Positions 27,122 through 27,152 of a DNA stretch of 27,152 nucleotides are shown one piece after another; within the stretch, counting starts at the first letter, position 1; each line of letters starts with the position of its first letter. The translations under genes and the position numbers were made by a program. The notes under the pieces were generated by a model that searched no databases, had not been told where the DNA came from, and saw nothing but the letters and a program-made list of their open reading frames with translations. Source of the DNA: a virus; the IMG/VR virus record IMGVR_UViG_3300034375_009759, positions 1 through 27,152 of that record. One strand, 5' to 3'.

Positions 27122-27126
27122 ACCGG

Positions 27127-27152
27127 CTACTCCTTCAGGAAGGGCAGGCCGG
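27127..27152 (-). other. Sequence upstream of the capsid start: possible 3' end of another gene
   Basis: One minus-strand frame reads GLPFLKE and then TAG (27129-27127), which would suit the tail of a prohead protease or similar upstream gene. The frame in phase with the capsid is also open to the edge. Only 26 nt are available, so neither reading is decided here. Confidence 0.25.

Follow-up and report, generated by a model that had tools for sequence, protein, structure and literature searches.

Our findings indicate, with a probability that we put at roughly 0.95, that the window (the whole 27,152-nucleotide stretch of viral DNA analysed here) is a broken contig lacking about 707 bp, that the lost segment belongs to a gene in which a phage portal, a MuF-like segment, a linker and an S78 prohead protease are fused, that the capsid protein is encoded separately, that the frame created by joining the two ends is accidental, and that the protease would be tethered via the portal. 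The portal and capsid genes lie at opposite ends of the window, both on the minus strand; the portal frame is open through base 1, and the capsid start at 27121 falls 31 bases short of the last base, 27152. The initial annotation had offered two explanations for this arrangement: a complete circular map encoding a portal-gpF-capsid polyprotein with an internal capsid start, or an assembly that broke at a repeat and lost a protease gene. The features on which our own interpretation draws are collected in Table 1.

Table 1. Predicted features of the portal and capsid genes at the two ends of the window.
Feature	Position	Strand	Basis and remarks
Portal-MuF-protease fusion, predicted 5' part	1..1781	-	593 codons plus two bases; GTG start at 1781; cut by the contig end
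phrog_2859-type linker, residues 490-591	9..314	-	phrog_2859, E 9.6e-25; last domain ahead of the break
MuF/minor-head-like Cys-His segment, residues ~423-470	372..515	-	PF04233, E 0.0074; phrog_4728
Phage portal domain, residues 61-370	672..1601	-	PF04860, E 9.2e-41; phrog_12 and phrog_2662 (portal)
Major capsid protein gene, 497 aa	25628..27121	-	Own ATG and ribosome-binding site; weak major-head-protein matches
Predicted fusion gene 3' end, GLPFLKE + TAG	27127..27152	-	In the +1 frame of the join; 39-mer present in L002; ~707 bp missing up to base 1
Shine-Dalgarno sequence of the capsid gene, AAGGAG	27130..27135	-	Read directly; overlaps the final two fusion codons

Fusing base 27152 to base 1 does yield the minus-strand frame of about 1,100 codons that had been described, from portal to capsid; by our count it comprises 1,101 codons and reads ...GDPGRSWADKV-GRPALPEGVAG-MFGEETKS..., and one copy of GGCCGGCC is re-formed at the join, as had also been observed. 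The join bridges two already open frames with just ten codons, and since only 31 bases separate it from the capsid ATG, phase alone produces an open frame about one time in three, which is not beyond chance. When breaks were simulated in the two relatives whose frame upstream of the capsid is open (L002 and L015), the portal and capsid frames were continuous in 32-33% of cases; the value was 4% in L004 because an in-frame TAA lies upstream of its capsid ATG. GGCCGGCC is already abundant in the window (20 copies vs 2.4 expected), and its re-formation is therefore no sign of a true junction. A search for overlap across the join by exact matching over 4-200 bases detected no terminal overlap or repeat between the window ends. 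The repeat itself has sites that include 1861, 4758, 8699, 13681, 17275 and 24414, several of them near gene boundaries; the relative G003 carries 25 copies, often at positions matching those in the window, and a longer core of the repeat resembles accGGCCGGCCggctggcct. That the contig had broken at this repeat was dismissed, as the bases flanking the window's two breaks, when compared in relatives, form no copy of GGCCGGCC at either one.

The sequence beyond base 1 can be followed in closely related contigs. One of these, G008, covers window positions 1-13594 (13.6 kb) at 99.7% identity and extends 94 bp past base 1 with a sequence that starts GRQMDAADEAEKEQ... and is unlike both GRPALPEGVAG and the window's other end. 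These 94 bases, translated in the portal frame, give GRQMDAADEAEKEQSRRHVAAKEADVRHNVGV, matching relatives, and the frame stays open over the 31 additional codons, which match the linker that leads to the protease. A second contig, G009, covers positions 25-17631 at 99.8% and terminates near the same point; the window (at positions 1-25), G009 (locus L052, position 1) and G008 (locus L053, position 1) form a set of three near-identical contigs that stop within ~120 bp of one another, at the portal C-terminus. L002 and L004, which share ~90% DNA identity with the window and span the interval, each carry exactly 707 bp more, a length that comes from these relatives and may differ slightly in the window's virus, where the segment is seen only via the 94 bp of the near-twin. 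In the record that holds L004 (G003, 28,961 bp) the two ends agree over 130 bp apart from a single mismatch, and the record can effectively be read as a circular map in which the break interval is internal. G003 and L003, whose fusion proteins are 100% identical, both end within the terminase gene, at points separated by ~4 bp.

Relatives extend the portal frame ~244 codons beyond the window's break. In all 16 loci that include the region upstream of the capsid, a single open frame runs to a stop at or just before the capsid start, and in loci of sufficient length this frame takes in the portal start, giving 837 codons in the nearest relatives. The missing bases are thus predicted to encode the C-terminal third of a portal-MuF-linker-S78 fusion of ~837 aa. 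The 1,101-codon joined frame is missing from every related sequence that covers the interval; because 707 is 2 mod 3, omitting 707 bases brings the portal into the capsid frame, and the long portal-capsid frame appears to be a chance product of that omission, a gap artefact. A genuine polyprotein encoded on a complete circle, with the capsid made from an internal start, would account for the frame being open across the join, but it is extremely improbable given ends that do not overlap, a near-identical contig that goes on with other sequence, relatives whose extra 707 bp include a protease and a stop, the one-in-three chance of such a frame, and the consequence that the phage would be left without any protease. 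Both the circular and the polyprotein readings were rejected on the continuation in G008, the relatives' 707 bp and the stops in the 16 loci; the part of the initial annotation that recognized a portal-gpF (MuF) fusion was right. We found no close relative among GTDB genomes, only distant matches to the protease domain, and the lineage has so far been seen in metagenomic virus contigs only. The window is best read as a broken contig, close to complete, from a small (~28 kb) tailed phage.

The far end of the window retains what appears to be the end of the same gene. Its last bases, read on the minus strand, are CC GGC CTG CCC TTC CTG AAG GAG TAG CCGGT ATG, that is, GLPFLKE, a TAG stop (27127-27129) and the capsid ATG, in a frame that differs from that of the joined ORF. 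The identical 39 bases terminate the intact fusion in L002, the one match returned when this capsid-end sequence was queried against viral contigs. The codons for the final two fusion residues form AAGGAG, which is also well positioned as the ribosome-binding site of the capsid gene. In other relatives 5, 6 or 8 nt separate the fusion stop from the capsid start behind it, or the two overlap as TAATG, and with this variable spacing the frame relation between fusion and capsid is not conserved, whereas the separate starts are kept, which speaks against a read-through polyprotein. The motif GLPFL(K/Q/E)E ends the fusion in 13 of 13 aligned relatives and is almost invariant even in L017. Its constancy (window 27130-27150) exceeds the needs of an overlap with a ribosome-binding site, and it is possibly a binding or cleavage signal.

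In relatives, the segment that the window lacks scores above the curated cut-off for Peptidase_S78 (PF04586, Caudovirus prohead serine protease), as does the fusion taken whole. The scores are modest (23-27 bits against a cut-off of 21; 26.7 for the domain alone), and each of the 13 relatives scanned matches at E <= 0.01. The protease part also matches phrog_80 and phrog_3244 (head maturation protease), matches NF045541 weakly, and matches TIGR01543 (HK97 prohead protease) at E 8e-9, under that family's own cut-off. His681 and Ser730 (P0001 numbering; H76 and S125 in A2), which we take to be the active-site pair by analogy with HK97 gp4, are invariant among relatives down to ~60% identity. A search of the PDB sequences with the protease profile gave no match. 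The AlphaFold model of the domain is poor (pLDDT 52), and fold searches with this low-confidence model gave no significant match; the Foldseek rows it returned include T4 gp21 and herpesvirus proteases at E >= 0.6 and Z 2.5-3.9, not above unrelated rows. A scan of the window for a protease elsewhere found none.

The search of relatives for a gene between portal and capsid, which the initial annotation had recommended, therefore recovered an S78 protease fused in frame to the portal. Its second explanation was right in supposing that the assembly is broken and the protease missing, but wrong in expecting a gene of its own, as the protease is best read as the C-terminal domain of the predicted portal fusion. 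In most HK97-like phages the protease is a separate gene. The canonical order of portal, protease and capsid is likewise one of separate genes, and pairwise fusions vary among phages (PMC7302621), so that the window's virus might be imagined to carry, within the missing segment, a stop and a new start that set its protease apart. We give this very little credence, since relatives that span the interval, at 59-98% identity, all lack a stop between the portal and protease parts and the additional codons in G008 are open toward the protease.

Upstream of the protease, the portal assignment is firm (140.5 bits for the window protein against PF04860, above the curated cut-off of 39.1). The MuF-like segment falls under the curated cut-off of the Phage Mu F-like family (17.5 bits against 29.6 for PF04233), matches the head morphogenesis family phrog_4728 at E 2e-6, and also matches phrog_115. 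This segment and the linker make up a cassette that is exchanged among relatives: the window, L004, L006, L009 and L015 carry the Cys-His segment with the linker, L007, L008, L010 and L011 carry a different module ('VFERGVGAYNTNPxSVRPGV') with the linker, and L017 has no cassette between portal and protease. The swapped part corresponds to fusion residues ~400-500 (window 280-580). Such exchange points to the portal and protease ends as the constant functional parts. The 'phages' collection held no record matching at least 80% of the fusion, none of the 60 listed among 465 matches to the protease part bore a portal name, and a literature search outside subscription journals found no three-way portal-MuF-protease fusion. 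Pairwise fusions have already been published, and the fusion described here appears to be a new combination of known parts.

The separate capsid gene keeps its ATG in all relatives, and its weak matches among 13 relatives are to phrog_544 in 11, phrog_10 in one and phrog_267 in one. Its N-terminal segment is less conserved and is predicted, with low confidence (AlphaFold pLDDT 35), to be helical and scaffold-like. On its downstream side, 18 bp only (25610-25627, minus strand) separate the capsid stop from the next gene in the window. All eight relatives checked carry a ~120-aa gene after the capsid (MSIQERVLVSPVMSGTDATD...), with ~446 bp more in L002-L004; the gene was not found anywhere in the whole window, and its absence reflects either a true deletion or a second assembly fault. 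Its product is perhaps a decoration protein. That this stretch and gene are so cleanly lacking shows that deletions relative to kin occur, or appear to, and by extension the window could derive from a true deletion variant that lost the protease domain, the join being correct for this strain only. We consider this most unlikely, as the record has ends here and no joined junction, the near-identical G008 retains sequence past base 1, and loss of the protease from a phage that keeps the N-terminal capsid segment is unlikely to be viable.

A broken contig with a portal-borne protease, the reading we prefer, has implications for how these phages mature. We infer that the fusion is translated as one protein and that the protease acts while tethered. 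Portal proteins are 12-mers located at one vertex, and the fused protein would accordingly assemble as a 12-fold portal, with as many as 12 copies of the protease entering the procapsid at the portal vertex. In the HK97 procapsid the scaffold domain of the capsid protein packs around the portal (PMC10275583). The protease of our fusion would trim the N-terminal scaffold segment off the capsid protein and would probably cut itself loose from the portal. Tentatively, and at odds that we place a little short of even, delivery on the portal would let the portal set both the copy number (12) and the vertex location of the protease, such that only portal-bearing shells mature, with the cassette exchanged between these two ends. 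If true, such portal-gated maturation would be a built-in quality check. Should the fusion operate as one working protein, protease dose and position would be tied to the portal, and both prohead protease uptake and the maturation of portal-less shells would become testable in a small phage system. Recognition of the gap also guards annotation against a spurious polyprotein of 1,100 codons and against a genome wrongly labelled 'complete'.

Fusions among these head genes have precedents, though each differs from the arrangement proposed here. Portal-MuF fused genes occur in Microbacterium clusters EA3/EA5/EA8/EB and Arthrobacter cluster AK (PMC7302621, PMC5513430). Like the gene in the window lineage, these actinobacteriophage genes combine portal and MuF-like minor head functions in a single gene that immediately precedes the capsid region, but they are described as two-part only, whereas the window lineage would add the protease as a third domain; Microbacterium cluster EA reportedly has no maturation protease gene (PMC7302621, PMC5513430). 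A MuF-capsid maturation protease fusion is found in Microbacterium cluster EG (PMC7302621), where a MuF-like domain is similarly joined to the protease, although the portal, the predicted N-terminal part in the window lineage, does not belong to the fusion as described. Protease-(scaffold)-capsid fusions are known from Microbacterium EE and EL, Arthrobacter AM/AU/AN, Rhodobacter RcC and NCBIfam NF045541 (PMC7302621, PMC5513430, PMC8601537); there too the maturation protease is built into a structural protein, but it is joined to its substrate, the capsid, rather than to the portal with the capsid apart. The phrog_2859-type linker is also present in the prohead protease of Pontimonas phage phiPsal1 and in genes annotated as major capsid protein in Synechococcus phage S-CBS3 and Roseobacter phage CRP-406. 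These phages thus carry the domain found between MuF and protease in the window lineage, yet their portal is a separate gene. HK97 (TIGR01537, TIGR01543) shares with the window lineage the portal, protease and capsid functions in the same order, as well as a scaffold-like N-terminal capsid segment (PMC10275583), but distributes them over three separate genes, whereas in the window lineage portal and protease appear to be joined in one gene, separated by a MuF/linker cassette.
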